A stretch of 64,000 bases of DNA, from assembly GCA_028599115.1 (NCBI GenBank), contig JAQRMR010000103.1, positions 12,713-76,712 on the forward strand, given 5' to 3'. Shown one piece after another: positions 17,583 through 63,305 of the stretch. Every line of letters starts with the position of its first letter. Position 1 is the stretch's first letter. The notes beneath the pieces were generated by a model, which worked only from the letters and a program-made list of their open reading frames with translations, was not told where the DNA came from and searched no databases. The position numbers and the translations under genes are program-made. The stretch is from Methyloprofundus sp. Its GTDB lineage: Bacteria; Pseudomonadota; Gammaproteobacteria; Methylococcales; Methylomonadaceae.

Positions 17583-18227
17583 ATGTCTAGCGTTTTTGAA
17601 TTTGAAGCTGTAAATAGAGCAAATAAAGGTACGGGTGCTGCAAAAGCAACTCGTCGTAATGGTGATGTTCCTGCTGTTATTTATGGTGGTTCGACTGATC
17701 CAGAGCATGTGGTTCTAAATCATAATGAAGTATCGAAAAGATTAGCTAATGAAGCTGTTTATTCGCATATTTTACAGGTCAGTGTGGATGGTAAATCGCA
17801 AAACGTTGTTTTGAAAGGATTACAAAGACACCCTGCGAAAGATACTATTTTGCATATGGATTTCTTGCGTGTTGATATGAATGAGAAACTTAAAGTTCAT
17901 GTGCCACTGCATTTTATAAACCAAGATATTTCGGTTGGTGTGAAAGCTGGCGGAGTTATTACTCATTCTATGGTTGAGTTGGAAGTTTTATGTTTGCCTG
18001 CTGTATTGCCTGAGTATATTGAAGTTGATATGACTGCAATAGATATTGGTGATTCTGTGCATTTAACAGATCTAGTTGTGCCTGAAGGCGTTGAAATTTT
18101 AGCATTAACGCATGGTGAAGATCATAATCTCCCTGTTGCGCAAGTTATTAAAACACGCCCTGTTGCAGAGGAAGTAGAAGATGATGCTGCTGCTGCAGAA
18201 GCTGGTGAAGAAGCAGAAAGTGAGTAG
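17583..18227 (+). CDS. rplY: 50S ribosomal protein L25/general stress protein Ctc
   Basis: 214 aa; L25 N-domain plus TL5/CTC C-domain. Confidence 0.97.
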   Translation: MSSVFEFEAVNRANKGTGAAKATRRNGDVPAVIYGGSTDPEHVVLNHNEVSKRLANEAVYSHILQVSVDGKSQNVVLKGLQRHPAKDTILHMDFLRVDMNEKLKVHVPLHFINQDISVGVKAGGVITHSMVELEVLCLPAVLPEYIEVDMTAIDIGDSVHLTDLVVPEGVEILALTHGEDHNLPVAQVIKTRPVAEEVEDDAAAAEAGEEAESE

Positions 18228-18799
18228 TGATTAAGCTTATTGTTGGTCTGGGTAATCCAGGTCAGAAATATGCAAAAACCCGGCATAATGCCGGGTTTTT
18301 ATTGTTAGATGAGTTAATAAAGGCTGAGGGTGGAGAGTTTTCGCTGCAGTCTCGTTTTTTAGGAAGTCTTGCTGAGTTGGTGACTTCTAGTGGTAAGGTT
18401 TATTTCTTAAAGCCAAATACTTTTATGAATCGGAGCGGGCAATCTGTTTCTTCTGTCATGAAGTATTATAAAATATTACCAGAAGAGGTTTTGGTGGTAC
18501 ATGATGAGCTGGATTTTTTAGTAGGCGATATGAAGCTAAAATTTTCAGGTGGTCATGGTGGTCATAATGGTTTAAGAGATATTATTTCTGCAATCAGTAC
18601 TAAAGACTTTGTTAGATTGCGCCTAGGAATAGGTCGACCTAAAGAGAGTAGTAAGGTAGCAGATTATGTGTTGTCTGATTTTTCAAAATTAGATGCACAG
18701 AAAATAGATGATATGTTTTTGCGTTTTATGCAGAAATTCCCGCAATTGTGCTCAGAAGGGTATCAGTCTGCGATGAATGAAATAAACTCATCTAAGTAG
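18227..18799 (+). CDS. pth: Peptidyl-tRNA hydrolase
   Basis: 190 aa; VGLGNPGQKYAKTRHNAGF; starts GTG overlapping the rplY stop. Confidence 0.98.
   Translation: MIKLIVGLGNPGQKYAKTRHNAGFLLLDELIKAEGGEFSLQSRFLGSLAELVTSSGKVYFLKPNTFMNRSGQSVSSVMKYYKILPEEVLVVHDELDFLVGDMKLKFSGGHGGHNGLRDIISAISTKDFVRLRLGIGRPKESSKVADYVLSDFSKLDAQKIDDMFLRFMQKFPQLCSEGYQSAMNEINSSK
18274..18300 (+). terminator. Terminator-like perfect palindrome inside the pth coding start
   Basis: AAAAACCCGGCAT-A-ATGCCGGGTTTTT followed by ATTG. Confidence 0.6.
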
Positions 18800-18823: not shown

Positions 18824-18852
18824 TTGACAAAAGTCGGTCGTTATCTCATAAT
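18824..18852 (+). promoter_or_regulatory. Sigma70-type promoter for the tRNA-Tyr/Gly/Thr-tuf operon
   Basis: TTGACA, 17-bp spacer, CATAAT; G/C-rich segment just downstream; tRNA begins at 18866. Confidence 0.8.
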
Positions 18853-19176: not shown

Positions 19177-20397
19177 ATGGCTAAAGAAAAATTTGAACGT
19201 ACTAAACCTCATGTAAACGTCGGCACAATTGGTCACGTTGATCATGGTAAAACAACACTAACCGCTGCACTAACAAGAGTTATGGCAGAGAAAATGGGTG
19301 GTGAAGTCAAAGCATTTGACCAAATCGATAATGCACCAGAAGAGCGTGAGCGTGGTATTACGATTGCAACATCACATGTTGAATATGAATCAGAAACGCG
19401 TCATTACGCACACGTTGACTGTCCAGGTCATGCTGATTATGTGAAAAACATGATTACCGGTGCTGCACAAATGGATGGTGCTATTTTAGTATGTGGCGCA
19501 ACAGATGGTCCTATGCCTCAAACAAGAGAGCATATCTTATTATCTCGCCAAGTAGGTGTACCTTACATTGTAGTCTTCCTAAACAAAGCTGACTTACTAG
19601 CAGAAGACTGTGGTGGTGTTGGTACAGAAGAATACAACGAAATGCTTGAATTAGTTGAAATGGAGTTACGTGAGTTATTAGACTTATATGAATTCCCTGG
19701 AGACGACACGCCAATTATCGTTGGTTCAGCTCTAAAAGGACTTGAAGGTGATACAAGCGAATTAGGTGCGCCAGCAATCGTAAAATTAGTTGATGCATTA
19801 GATAGCTACATTCCAGAGCCAGAAAGAGCGGTTGAAGGTGCTTTTATTATGCCGATTGAAGATGTATTCTCAATTTCTGGTCGTGGAACCGTTGTAACAG
19901 GACGTATTGAGCGTGGTGTTGTAAAAGTTGGCGAAGAAATCGAAATCGTTGGTATTAAAGAAACAGTTAAAACAACGTGTACGGGCGTTGAAATGTTCCG
20001 TAAACTGCTTGATCAAGGTGAGGCGGGCGATAACGTAGGTATCCTATTAAGAGGAACAAAACGTGAAGATGTAGAGCGTGGTCAAGTACTAGCTCATGTT
20101 GGTACAATTAACCCACATACAAAATTCACAGCAGAAATCTACGTACTATCAAAAGATGAGGGTGGTCGTCATACACCATTCTTCGACGGATACCGTCCAC
20201 AGTTCTACTTCAGAACAACAGACGTAACTGGCGCAGTAAAATTACCAGAAGGCACAGAAATGGTCATGCCTGGCGACAACGTATCAGTAGAAGTGACACT
20301 GATTGCACCAATCGCAATGGAAGATGGCTTACGTTTTGCTATTCGTGAAGGTGGTCGTACAGTTGGTGCTGGTGTTGTTGCAACAGTAGTTGAATAA
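19177..20397 (+). CDS. tuf: Elongation factor Tu (copy 1)
   Basis: 406 aa; [27 protein letters not shown]; downstream of tRNA-Tyr/Gly/Thr. Confidence 0.99.
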
Positions 20398-35458: not shown

Positions 35459-36679
35459 ATGGCTAAAGAAAAATTTGAACGTACTAAACCCCATGTAAAC
35501 GTCGGCACAATTGGTCACGTTGATCATGGTAAAACAACACTAACCGCTGCACTAACAAGAGTTATGGCAGAGAAAATGGGTGGTGAAGTCAAAGCATTTG
35601 ACCAAATCGATAATGCACCAGAAGAGCGTGAGCGTGGTATTACGATTGCAACATCACATGTTGAATATGAATCAGAAACGCGTCATTACGCACACGTTGA
35701 CTGTCCAGGTCATGCTGATTATGTGAAAAACATGATTACCGGTGCTGCACAAATGGATGGTGCTATTTTAGTATGTGGCGCAACAGATGGTCCTATGCCT
35801 CAAACAAGAGAGCATATCTTATTATCTCGCCAAGTAGGTGTACCTTACATTGTAGTCTTCCTAAACAAAGCTGACTTACTAGCAGAAGACTGTGGTGGTG
35901 TTGGTACAGAAGAATACAACGAAATGCTTGAATTAGTTGAAATGGAGTTACGTGAGTTATTAGACTTATATGAATTCCCTGGAGACGACACGCCAATTAT
36001 CGTTGGTTCAGCTCTAAAAGGACTTGAAGGTGATACAAGCGAATTAGGTGCGCCAGCAATCGTAAAATTAGTTGATGCATTAGATAGCTACATTCCAGAG
36101 CCAGAAAGAGCGGTTGAAGGTGCTTTTATTATGCCGATTGAAGATGTATTCTCAATTTCTGGTCGTGGAACCGTTGTAACAGGACGTATTGAGCGTGGTG
36201 TTGTAAAAGTTGGCGAAGAAATCGAAATCGTTGGTATTAAAGAAACAGTTAAAACAACGTGTACGGGCGTTGAAATGTTCCGTAAACTGCTTGATCAAGG
36301 TGAGGCGGGCGATAACGTAGGTATCCTATTAAGAGGAACAAAACGTGAAGATGTAGAGCGTGGTCAAGTACTAGCTCATGTTGGTACAATTAACCCACAT
36401 ACAAAATTCACAGCAGAAATCTACGTACTATCAAAAGATGAGGGTGGTCGTCATACACCATTCTTCGACGGATACCGTCCACAGTTCTACTTCAGAACAA
36501 CAGACGTAACTGGCGCAGTAAAATTACCAGAAGGCACAGAAATGGTCATGCCTGGCGACAACGTATCAGTAGAAGTGACACTGATTGCACCAATCGCAAT
36601 GGAAGATGGCTTACGTTTTGCTATTCGTGAAGGTGGTCGTACAGTAGGTGCTGGTGTTGTTGCAACGGTTGTAGAGTAG
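35459..36679 (+). CDS. tuf: Elongation factor Tu (copy 2)
   Basis: Protein identical to 19177..20397. Confidence 0.99.
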
Positions 36680-51667: not shown

Positions 51668-52948
51668 GTGAATGTACGTTTAATTTCTGCCAATGTTCTG
51701 GTGCGTGTTTTAGAAGGGAAATCTTTAACGGTAGCGCTTGATGAGGCTTGGCTTAAAGTACCTGACCTTAAAGATAGGGCTTTTATTCAAGCTTTGTGTT
51801 ATGGCAGTATTCGTTATTATTATCGTTTAGATTTTATTCTGTCTAAACTGGTCAACAAACCAGTTAAAGACAAGCAGTTAAAAGCTTTGTTGATACTCGG
51901 ATTGTTTCAGCTGCAGTACATGCGCGTTAAAGCACATGCGGCTGTTTCTGAAACCGTTGCTGTTATGAAAAAGAAGCAGTGGGCGAAATCGCTGCTAAAT
52001 GCCGTTTTACGTCGCTATTTACGAGAGCAAGAGGAGTTAGAGTCTCTTGCTGATAAGCATGTTGCTTATGCGCACCCTGATTGGATGATTAAGCAAGTTA
52101 AAGCTTGTTGGGGTAGTGATGCTAAGGCTGTATTGTTGGCCAATAATGAATTGCCTCCGATGGTTCTGCGTGTTAATCAGCATTTTTGCTCTCGTAATGA
52201 GTATATCGACTTATTGGCTAGCAACGAAATACCAGCTGTGGCTCTAGAATCTTCTGAGCAAGCTATTTTATTAGAGGTGCCTGTACTTGTAACTAAGTTA
52301 CCAAAATTTGATGAGGGCTGGGTATCAGTGCAGGATTCAGCTGCGCAATTGGCGGCTGGGTTGTTAGATGCGCAGGTTGGAGATAGGGTTTTAGATGTTT
52401 GTGCTGCGCCAGGCGGTAAAACGGCGCACATATTAGAACTTCAGCCTCAATTAGGTTCTTTATTGGCTGTTGATATTGATGCGAATCGTTTGTTGCGTGT
52501 AGAAGAGAATCTAAAACGCCTTAAGCTTAAGGCGGATGTTTTAACCGCTGATGCTGCTAATACTGCGGGTTGGTGGGATGGGCAGCAATTTGACCGGATA
52601 TTGCTTGACGCGCCGTGTTCTGCTTTAGGTGTTATTAGGCGGCACCCAGATATTAAATTATTGCGCAGAGAAGATGATGTTGCGCCATTACAGCAGTTAC
52701 AAAAAGAAATTCTACAAGCAATCTGGGCTTTACTAAAGCCAGGAGGTACGCTGTTGTATGCTACCTGTTCTATTTTAAAGCAGGAAAATGAATTGCAGAT
52801 TGAGGCTTTTTTAGCAAGTAACGCAGATGCAACTGAGCTGATTATTGATGCAGACTGGGGAATTGCTCGCCCTTTTGGTCGCCAGGTTTTAACAGGTGAT
52901 CAGTCTATGGATGGCTTTTATTATGCGTGTTTGCAGAAGCAAGAGTAG
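51668..52948 (+). CDS. rsmB: 16S rRNA m5C967 methyltransferase
   Basis: 426 aa; DVCAAPGGKTAHI; YATCSI; NusB-like N-domain. Confidence 0.97.
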   Translation: MNVRLISANVLVRVLEGKSLTVALDEAWLKVPDLKDRAFIQALCYGSIRYYYRLDFILSKLVNKPVKDKQLKALLILGLFQLQYMRVKAHAAVSETVAVMKKKQWAKSLLNAVLRRYLREQEELESLADKHVAYAHPDWMIKQVKACWGSDAKAVLLANNELPPMVLRVNQHFCSRNEYIDLLASNEIPAVALESSEQAILLEVPVLVTKLPKFDEGWVSVQDSAAQLAAGLLDAQVGDRVLDVCAAPGGKTAHILELQPQLGSLLAVDIDANRLLRVEENLKRLKLKADVLTADAANTAGWWDGQQFDRILLDAPCSALGVIRRHPDIKLLRREDDVAPLQQLQKEILQAIWALLKPGGTLLYATCSILKQENELQIEAFLASNADATELIIDADWGIARPFGRQVLTGDQSMDGFYYACLQKQE

Positions 52949-60572: not shown

Positions 60573-63305
60573 ATGAGTGGCTTTGTCGTTGGTCAGCGTT
60601 GGGTAAGTGGTTCTGAGCCTGAGTTGGGTTTGGGTTTGGTTGTCGAGGCAAGTGACAATCGAGTAAGTATCGTCTATTTCGCCGCAGAGGAGCAGCGTGT
60701 TTATGCGCAAGATAATAGCCCTTTAACGCGAGTACGATTTAAGCCCTTGGATGAGCTGCAGACGACGGCAGGTATTGAAGGCAGTGTTATTGCTCTTAGC
60801 GAAACGAATGGCTTGATTTGTTACGAACTACAAACAAAATCAGCAGGGGTAGTGTTTGTTGATGAGATTGATTTAAGCCACTCTTTGCAGTTTAACAAGC
60901 CTCAAGATCGATTGTTTATGGGTCAGGCCGAATCTGCACGCTGGTTTTCCTTGCGTTACCAGACTTGGGTACATAAACAGCGCCTAGAAAAAAGTGTTGT
61001 TAGAGGCTTGTTATCCACAAGAGCGTCTTTAATTCCCCATCAAATCTATATCGCGCATGAGGCGGCTAATCGAGATCAAGCACGTATCATGCTGGCTGAT
61101 GAGGTTGGTTTAGGAAAAACGATTGAAGCGGGGCTCATACTGCAATATCGGCTTCATGCCGGCTTGTGTTCGCGAGTTATTATTTTGGTGCCGGATAGCT
61201 TATTGCATCAATGGTTAGTGGAGATGTGGCGACGCTTTAATTTGCGTTTCAGTTTATTTGATGAGGAGCGATGTGTTGCAACGCTTGATGGTAATCCTTT
61301 TTTAAGTGAGCAATTAGTTCTGTGTAGTCTTAGCTTTTTTGCTAACAATCCACATAGAAAACAGCAGGCACTGGATGCAGGCTGGGATATGTTGGTTGTG
61401 GATGAGGCGCATCATTTGCAGTGGTCGGAAGCTAGTGTTAGTGATGACTATTTATTGGTCGAACACTTTGCACAGCAAACGGATGACTTAATCTTATTAA
61501 CTGCTACGCCAGAGCAGCAAGGGAAGGCCTCGCATTTTGCACAGTTACGATTATTGGATACGGATCGTTTTTATAGTTATCCTGAATTTATCAAGGAAGA
61601 GCGGGAGTTTGCGCCTATCGCAGGCTTGGCTGAAAAAATTATTAACGAGCAAAGTCTTGGTGTGGCTGAAAGCGATGCATTAAAGGCATTGGTTGATGAT
61701 GCGCTTTGTGTTGATATCATATTGAATAAATTGGAAATTATTGATCAGCTTATTGATCGGCATGGAACGGGAAGGGTTTTATTTAGGAATTCTAGGCATG
61801 TGATAAAAGGATTTCCGGAAAGAGAGTTGCATTGTTATCCAATAGTCAAAACTGAGGATGAGTTAGGTGAGTATAAAGAATGGTTGCTTGATTTTTTACG
61901 GGGTTTAGAGGGAAAGCAGGTACTACTGATTTGTCAAAAAGCCGAAACAGTTATTTTTTTGCAAAAAGTATTGCGTGACAAGCATGCGATTAATGCAGCA
62001 GCATTTCATGAGGGAATGACTTTAGTTGAGCGTGATAGGGCAGCTGCTTATTTTTCAGATGCTGAAGCAAAAGTACAAATTTTACTTTGTTCGGAAATTG
62101 GCAGTGAAGGGCGTAACTTTCAATTTGTGCATCACCTAGTTTTGCTGGATTTACCTGAGAACCCTGATTTATTGCAGCAACGGATTGGGCGTTTAGATCG
62201 AATTGGACAAAAACAGCGTATTCAGATTCATGTGCCATATATTGCATCTAGCAGGCAGCATAGTTTGTGTCGCTGGTACTCGGAAGAGGGCTTAAGTTTA
62301 TTTCAAAGAAATAGTAATGCGGCTAGTGAGGTGTATCGACAGCTAAAGCATAAGCTTATAACTGTTTGTGCAAGTGATACTCAGCAGGGGTTGCTTAGTT
62401 TGCTTGATGAGTCAAAAGCGTTAATTAATAAAGTTGAAGCGGATATGCACCGGTCGCGAGATATTTTATTGGAGCTGAACTCTTGCCGGCAAGATAAAGC
62501 GCAGGAATTAATTGCTGCGATTCGTGAAGAAGAGAAAGTAGGCAGTTTGTGGCAATATTTAGAAGAGGTTTTCGAGTGCTTTGGTGTGGATTCAGAGTAT
62601 CACTCGCAAAACTGCGCCATTCTGCAGCTGGGTGAATTGCAACGCGTGACGCACTTTCCTTGGGTTCCTGAAGATGGGGTGACGGTCACCGTGGATCGAG
62701 CGACAGCGTTGGCAAGAGAGGATATGCAGTACTTAACATGGGAGCACCCTATGTTGGTAGCGGCTATGGAGATGATGGTGGCTGATACGGTTGGTAATGC
62801 TGCGGTAAGTATTGTAAAAAATGATAACTTAGAAACGGGTATTTACTTACTAGAGTGCTTGTTTGTTATTGAATGCAGTGCACCTGCAAGCTTGCAGGTG
62901 CATCGGTTTTTGCCTGTTACGCCAATCCGGGTTCTTATTGATCAAAATGATAAAGACGTAAGTGCTGACTTCGCACATAATGATTTGCATGAAATCAAAA
63001 ATGAAATAGAAGATGAGCAAATGACGGCTTTTATGGTTAGTCAGCAAGAGAAAATTAATGCAATGATTGCCAAGGCAGAAGAAGTTTCTGTGTTGACGAT
63101 GAATCATGTTGTTCGTGATGCAATTGCTGAAATGTTGAAAAACTCAGCGCGTGAAATAAAGCGCTTAAAGGCGCTTAGTTTGGTGAATGCAACGGTGTCA
63201 CCCGATGATTTGCAAGCTTTAAAGGATAAAGCCATTGCAGCGCATGGGCATATTGCGGAAGCACAATTGCGCTTGGACGCGGTTCGATTTATTATAAGCA
63301 GTTAA
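60573..63305 (+). CDS. rapA: RNA polymerase-associated ATPase RapA (SWI2/SNF2 family)
   Basis: 910 aa; FVVGQRWVS N-domain; LADEVGLGKTIEAGLI, VVDEAHHL, QRIGRLDRIGQ. Confidence 0.95.
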   Translation: MSGFVVGQRWVSGSEPELGLGLVVEASDNRVSIVYFAAEEQRVYAQDNSPLTRVRFKPLDELQTTAGIEGSVIALSETNGLICYELQTKSAGVVFVDEIDLSHSLQFNKPQDRLFMGQAESARWFSLRYQTWVHKQRLEKSVVRGLLSTRASLIPHQIYIAHEAANRDQARIMLADEVGLGKTIEAGLILQYRLHAGLCSRVIILVPDSLLHQWLVEMWRRFNLRFSLFDEERCVATLDGNPFLSEQLVLCSLSFFANNPHRKQQALDAGWDMLVVDEAHHLQWSEASVSDDYLLVEHFAQQTDDLILLTATPEQQGKASHFAQLRLLDTDRFYSYPEFIKEEREFAPIAGLAEKIINEQSLGVAESDALKALVDDALCVDIILNKLEIIDQLIDRHGTGRVLFRNSRHVIKGFPERELHCYPIVKTEDELGEYKEWLLDFLRGLEGKQVLLICQKAETVIFLQKVLRDKHAINAAAFHEGMTLVERDRAAAYFSDAEAKVQILLCSEIGSEGRNFQFVHHLVLLDLPENPDLLQQRIGRLDRIGQKQRIQIHVPYIASSRQHSLCRWYSEEGLSLFQRNSNAASEVYRQLKHKLITVCASDTQQGLLSLLDESKALINKVEADMHRSRDILLELNSCRQDKAQELIAAIREEEKVGSLWQYLEEVFECFGVDSEYHSQNCAILQLGELQRVTHFPWVPEDGVTVTVDRATALAREDMQYLTWEHPMLVAAMEMMVADTVGNAAVSIVKNDNLETGIYLLECLFVIECSAPASLQVHRFLPVTPIRVLIDQNDKDVSADFAHNDLHEIKNEIEDEQMTAFMVSQQEKINAMIAKAEEVSVLTMNHVVRDAIAEMLKNSAREIKRLKALSLVNATVSPDDLQALKDKAIAAHGHIAEAQLRLDAVRFIISS
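62879..62902. repeat. 24-bp perfect palindrome inside rapA
   Basis: TGCACCTGCAAG|CTTGCAGGTGCA. Confidence 0.9.

Follow-up and report, generated by a model that had tools for sequence, protein, structure and literature searches.

A terminator-like hairpin kept by synonymous codons in the active-site segment of pth, downstream of rplY, in Methylococcales

Intrinsic terminators, intercistronic attenuators and terminators inside open reading frames (ORFs) are known kinds of element. In Escherichia coli, an intercistronic attenuator lies between the ribosomal protein and RNA polymerase genes of rplL-rpoB. Intrinsic terminators or 3′ ends within ORFs have been found by experiment in the same single species (PMC5021804, PMC7815308). 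The element described here lies at the start of pth, the gene of peptidyl-tRNA hydrolase, in a window of 64,000 nucleotides from Methyloprofundus sp., which is the whole stretch of DNA that was analysed. With intrinsic (Rho-independent) terminators it shares an A-tract, a GC-rich stem, a short loop and a U-tract, as well as the distance expected from an upstream stop codon: the layout, which ends in U5, stands 47-73 nt past the rplY stop, with the hairpin about 50-80 nt past rplY. It differs from the usual ones in that it lies early in the coding sequence of the downstream gene, is kept by synonymous codons, has a shorter U-tract and is known here from sequence. Like the rplL-rpoB attenuator, it is sited at the passage from a ribosomal protein gene to a downstream gene of lower demand, where it would partly stop transcription, but it sits in the second gene, in codons of the active site, and not in the space between the two.

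The E. coli ORF-internal cases likewise comprise terminator-like hairpins or 3′ ends in coding sequence, whereas the pth element is known from compensated conservation throughout an order; rplY is not mentioned in the main text of PMC5021804 or PMC7815308, nor pth in PMC7815308. Leader attenuators and riboswitch expression platforms also place a terminator hairpin, possibly gated by translation, before most of a gene. The pth element differs from these in having neither leader peptide nor aptamer, and any gating would fall to the very ribosome that translates pth. What appears to be new, judging from the open-access literature searched and from Rfam, in which no description of the pth element was found, is a terminator-like element that an order preserves, through compensating codons, within the active-site segment of a downstream gene; in the window, only tRNA families reached the gathering score in an Rfam scan. 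Terminators are as a rule expected to be kept out of coding sequences; in pth, one seems to be selected and repaired throughout an order, with rare codons, in the most conserved part of the gene, which holds the active site.

The palindrome in pth and its surroundings

The genes run in the order ispE-prs-rplY-pth, followed by tRNA-Tyr/Gly/Thr and tuf, and the coordinates of the features are collected in Table 1. Base 18227 is common to the rplY stop codon, as its last base, and the pth start; from this overlap, co-transcription of rplY and pth is presumed. Peptidyl-tRNA hydrolase is essential in E. coli, and pth homologues were present in 53 of the 61 relatives searched. Going by the named relatives, the genome would belong to Methylococcales, close to methanotrophic symbionts of Bathymodiolus.

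Table 1. Features of the rplY-pth region (positions in the window)
Feature	Position	Strand	Remarks
rplY, ribosomal protein L25/TL5 family	17583..18227	+	ORF; profile from its protein
pth, peptidyl-tRNA hydrolase	18227..18799	+	ORF; GTG start 18227, stop 18799
HP1, second and weaker hairpin over GLGNPG codons, just 5′ of HP2	18243..18265	+	recoding z
A-tract ahead of core stem, Ala/Lys codons GCA AAA; able to pair with U-tract	18274..18277	+	
HP2, core hairpin	18278..18296	+	stem ACCCGGC (18278-18284) with GCCGGGT (18290-18296)
U-tract UUUUUAUU, Phe-Leu-Leu codons; after and partly within stem	18296..18303	+	silent-site U excess

The first-pass annotation had reported a perfect 27-nt inverted repeat in the conserved active-site codons at the start of pth, and it is found exactly at 18274-18300, as AAAAACCCGGCAT-A-ATGCCGGGTTTTT: two arms of 13 nt, 100% complementary, around a 1-nt spacer. 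The palindrome begins at the 48th nucleotide of pth, and its codons, AAA ACC CGG CAT AAT GCC GGG TTT TT(A), read K TRHNAGF (L); HP2 takes up Thr-Arg-His-Asn-Ala-Gly and the first base of Phe. As RNA, HP2 has a core stem of 7 bp, 6 of them G-C, and a loop of 3-5 nt. The + strand RNA of 151 nt folds into this stem, with a stability exceeding that of all 200 shuffles, and the predicted fold has both HP1 and HP2 formed together. The same annotation had held that 13 matched half-site positions were improbable by chance in 64 kb. Taken alone, however, such a repeat is not unique here: the window has four more perfect ones, most of them palindromes, whose arms measure 12-15 nt, and chance is excluded by the comparative evidence rather than by the 13-nt arms themselves.

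The codons that build the stem are rare in the flanking genes, where ACC serves for 0 of 25 Thr, CGG for 1 of 32 Arg, GCC for 2 of 60 Ala and GGG for 4 of 45 Gly. The motif has a single occurrence in the 2.3-Mb genome, and a genomic repeat or uptake signal was rejected for that reason. A slippery site with frameshifting was rejected by inspection, as the Lys codon is unconserved outside the order and the stem begins without a spacer.

Conservation and compensation of the stem

Conservation of the palindrome goes far past chance in the sequences compared. Across relatives, the stem keeps C, G, C/T and G at its four silent sites and the loop is free to vary at its two, so that among the 149 genomes listed the stem wobble sites are near invariant and the loop wobble sites free; such counts of genomes are not counts of independent events, and many of the G-numbered genomes are probably metagenome assemblies. 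The stem codons are conserved throughout the order Methylococcales though rare in the genomes concerned. For a folding-energy z, 40 synonymous versions of pth were made for each genome with codons drawn by local usage, the null being taken from a small number of genes nearby. In Methylococcales this z is -5.2 at the hairpin and about -0.3 in the remaining pth, and the other members of the class have a smaller peak of -1.5 at the same place. Because the values split by presence of the stem, at about -3.9 to -4.5 for loci with it and about -0.4 for class loci without it, the hairpin is to be regarded as present or absent and not as graded.

Outside Methylococcales, the hairpin is found in about 29% of the gammaproteobacterial pth genes sampled. 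All four stem bases occur together in 41 of the 146 non-Methylococcales matches of the class sample, against 11.6 expected if they were independent, and the four sites are linked pairwise (p < 0.002 for five of the six pairs, 0.055 for the sixth); in the same 2x2 tests of this sample, linkage between stem sites and loop or control sites was not detectable. The distribution outside the order is clade-structured, with some 22 changes on the Pth tree, and the complete motif was not seen beyond Gammaproteobacteria in the phylum sample. A second stem register, ACCCGC/GCGGGT, occurs in some members of the class and is not claimed, the loci without the standard stem folding little in excess (z -0.43).

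The motif of the protein leaves room for few covarying pairs, and these are provided by amino-acid replacements. Wherever Asn takes the place of Thr (ACC to AAC), the Gly codon opposite in the stem reads GGT and never GGG, which turns a C-G pair into A-U; this Thr/Asn and GGG/GGT compensation is found in seven Methylococcales genomes of four genera, and in three of three independent pairs on the tree, with none contrary. When Ala is replaced by Val, the Arg codon is often CGA (A-U) and otherwise CGG (G-U), and with Ala, CGA almost never occurs. The Val/CGA link has a Fisher value of 1.4e-5, uncorrected for relatedness, and independent pairs on the tree are too few for a test. Two genomes carry both compensations together, in AACCGACATAATGTCGGTT. 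An alignment with 66 distinct sequences has standard pairs in 93.8% of its pair cells; with the partners slid, the share is about 55% at most. Where only one side of any of the seven core pairs has changed, the outcome is G-U on the sense strand in 14 cells and A-C in one. The strand asymmetry is modest at silent sites alone, and compensation is therefore the main argument.

These observations make selection on an RNA hairpin, acting through synonymous pth codons, well supported by the sequences compared. The first-pass annotation had proposed that the palindrome was built from codon choice and had named as grounds for giving the idea up that relatives keep no pairing at their synonymous sites; such pairing is present, and the near-invariant wobble sites of the stem, the free ones of the loop and the pairs that covary with amino-acid replacements bear the proposal out.

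The U-tract and the neighbourhood of rplY

The codons on either side of the stem are also biased. In hairpin-bearing Methylococcales, the Leu that follows Phe is TTR in 42/42 cases (27.9 expected), Phe is TTT in 49/53 (38.9 expected) and the Lys ahead of the stem is AAA in 45/47 (27.6 expected); where other residues follow the stem in the order, the tract becomes TTT-NTT-TTT. Over the three codons 3′ of the stem, the excess of U at silent sites reaches z +6.6 with the stem and +1.3 without it in Methylococcales, and +5.8 and +2.2, respectively, at the other class loci, control windows spanning z -4.3 to +1.8. The U-tract is right behind the stem in the window; outside the order it is weak, being short or interrupted (UUUUGG, UUCUGG), and TTT is not preferred for Phe there (19/38, with 17.1 expected). 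The U-tract of HP2 is shorter than those of the intergenic terminators in the window, which counts against a terminator, while its stem energy is equal to or better than that of the intergenic terminators of the same layout; a stem as strong with a shorter tail is in keeping with partial termination. Selection on the U-tract fits an intrinsic terminator better than a bare hairpin.

Every hairpin-bearing locus with enough upstream sequence has rplY, recognised by a profile of the window's protein, upstream of pth (79/79 in the order and 43/43 elsewhere). Adjacent rplY is absent from 11 of the 19 hairpin-less Methylococcales loci; against an attenuator, 8 loci of the order have rplY yet lack the hairpin. 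The stem has decayed in the genera g11 and g6, where pth has been relocated away from rplY, and in genomes G092 and G098, where extra sequence separates the two genes. As the tree holds only two inferred changes of rplY adjacency, and independent events are accordingly few, the association of hairpin and rplY is suggestive and not proven. Of 102 class loci without the hairpin, 13 have a terminator-like site in the stretch from rplY to the region of the pth start; of 43 with it, none (0) does. Where pth has left, rplY continues towards tRNA-Tyr and no intrinsic terminator is recognisable after it; this weakens the idea that rplY itself needs a terminator, and the element hence seems to serve the dosage of pth rather than rplY.

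Three loci deserve separate mention. Between rplY and pth of genome G092 (L213) stands a putative toxin-antitoxin pair of the HigBA type, judged by eye. Locus L260 (genome G863), taken for a hairpin-bearing exception without rplY, has rplY behind a tandem-repeat insertion of about three near-identical ~200-nt units, with the pth hairpin kept downstream. G768/L261 was dropped as a pth locus, its upstream frame having stop codons and no GLGNPG motif.

Candidate functions of the element

The sequence evidence supports selection on hairpin and U-tract as sense-strand RNA in the rplY-pth context. The proposals of the first-pass annotation that the U run forms part of a terminator, and that the whole acts as a terminator or attenuator between rplY and pth, gain support from the silent-site selection of U after the hairpin and from the company that the hairpin keeps with rplY, respectively. 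On balance, we favour an intrinsic terminator embedded in coding sequence, most likely a partial one (an attenuator), which lowers the transcription of pth relative to rplY; through hairpin and U-tract, pth expression would probably be held below that of the preceding ribosomal protein gene. In the mechanism that we infer, for termination and its efficiency as much as for the dosage purpose and the gating by ribosomes, RNA polymerase arriving from rplY would stop part of the time at the hairpin and U-tract, so that abundant L25 and scarcer Pth could share transcripts with pth mRNA kept low. The terminator would be placed within the pth start because rplY and pth abut and leave no intergenic space. 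A ribosome translating the pth start close behind the polymerase would block the hairpin and let transcription proceed; reporters in E. coli show that a ribosome can suppress intrinsic termination (PMC5021804). A more ambitious form of the proposal, which we offer tentatively, is a translation-gated terminator in the catalytic codons of pth, where ribosome traffic at the pth start would decide whether pth mRNA is completed, as a feedback between Pth supply and the state of translation; Gammaproteobacteria would either have inherited it from their ancestor or have gained it several times, and in Methylococcales it would be close to fixation. If the element does terminate, it would be a compact means of setting two overlapping genes apart in expression and a clear example of codons being chosen for RNA structure and not for translation, and it might tie the supply of peptidyl-tRNA hydrolase to translation.

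Other functions of the hairpin are less likely. As a stabiliser of 3′ ends or a processing barrier, it would halt exonucleases that trim an rplY-pth mRNA cut, or terminated by Rho, within pth, and the rplY part would outlive the pth part, with the U-tract secondary. This would have the same outcome of rplY over pth and the same dependence on rplY, and it would suit the stem being kept outside Methylococcales despite a weak U-tract; we nevertheless hold it to be unlikely, as U is selected after the hairpin even outside the order (z +5.8), and the Methylococcales tract is kept through differing residues (TTT-NTT-TTT), which a mere barrier would find superfluous. Strong structure is seldom met with by a start codon, where it should reduce translation, and with the stem at codons 17-24 and HP1 at codons 6-13, early pausing of ribosomes in pth, or less pth translation by the joint effect of HP2 and HP1, could be imagined without any termination. 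HP1 exceeds the strength expected from synonymous recoding, both in Methylococcales and in many of their classmates, in two pairing registers, its recoding z being -1.5 in Methylococcales and -0.6 to -1.0 at other class loci, with controls mostly at -0.5 to 0.1. A translational hairpin of this kind does not predict a selected U-tract, however, and explains the dependence on rplY less directly, which makes it decidedly improbable as the main function.

The near-perfect dyad, an antisense recoding z that is equally strong in Methylococcales and the likewise selected A-tract would also suit a palindrome to which a protein dimer binds as DNA, or a terminator that works in both directions, on antisense RNA too. 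Half-sites of a DNA operator should be conserved regardless of RNA pairing; what is found instead are matched double changes (Asn with GGT, Val with CGA) that preserve pairing and alter both half-sites. Given also the 14-to-one preponderance of sense-strand G-U over A-C among one-sided core changes and the uniqueness of the motif in the genome, we regard either version as very improbable. As for the idea that the codons of a conserved peptide merely happen to permit a palindrome, TRHNAG does fix several pairs whatever the codons, but four rare codons are conserved jointly, the stem wobble sites are linked (all four in 41 genomes, with 11.6 expected), and the recoding z of -5.2 comes with compensatory changes, so the chance of this being the explanation is negligible.

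The preferred attenuator apart, a few features of the window may be recorded. From the pth stop to the tRNAs, nothing resembling a terminator and having a good U-tract was seen; a promoter-like TTGACA-17-CATAAT stands at 18824-18852, between pth and tRNA-Tyr. An identical stretch of 41 nt recurs at 19256-19296, inside tuf, and at 35538-35578, 16.3 kb apart, and from this repeat the window probably holds a second tuf copy. Two perfect DNA palindromes have AAGCTT centres, one of 24 nt at 62879-62902 (TGCACCTGCAAGCTTGCAGGTGCA) and one of 18 nt at 52517-52534 (CGCCTTAAGCTTAAGGCG).
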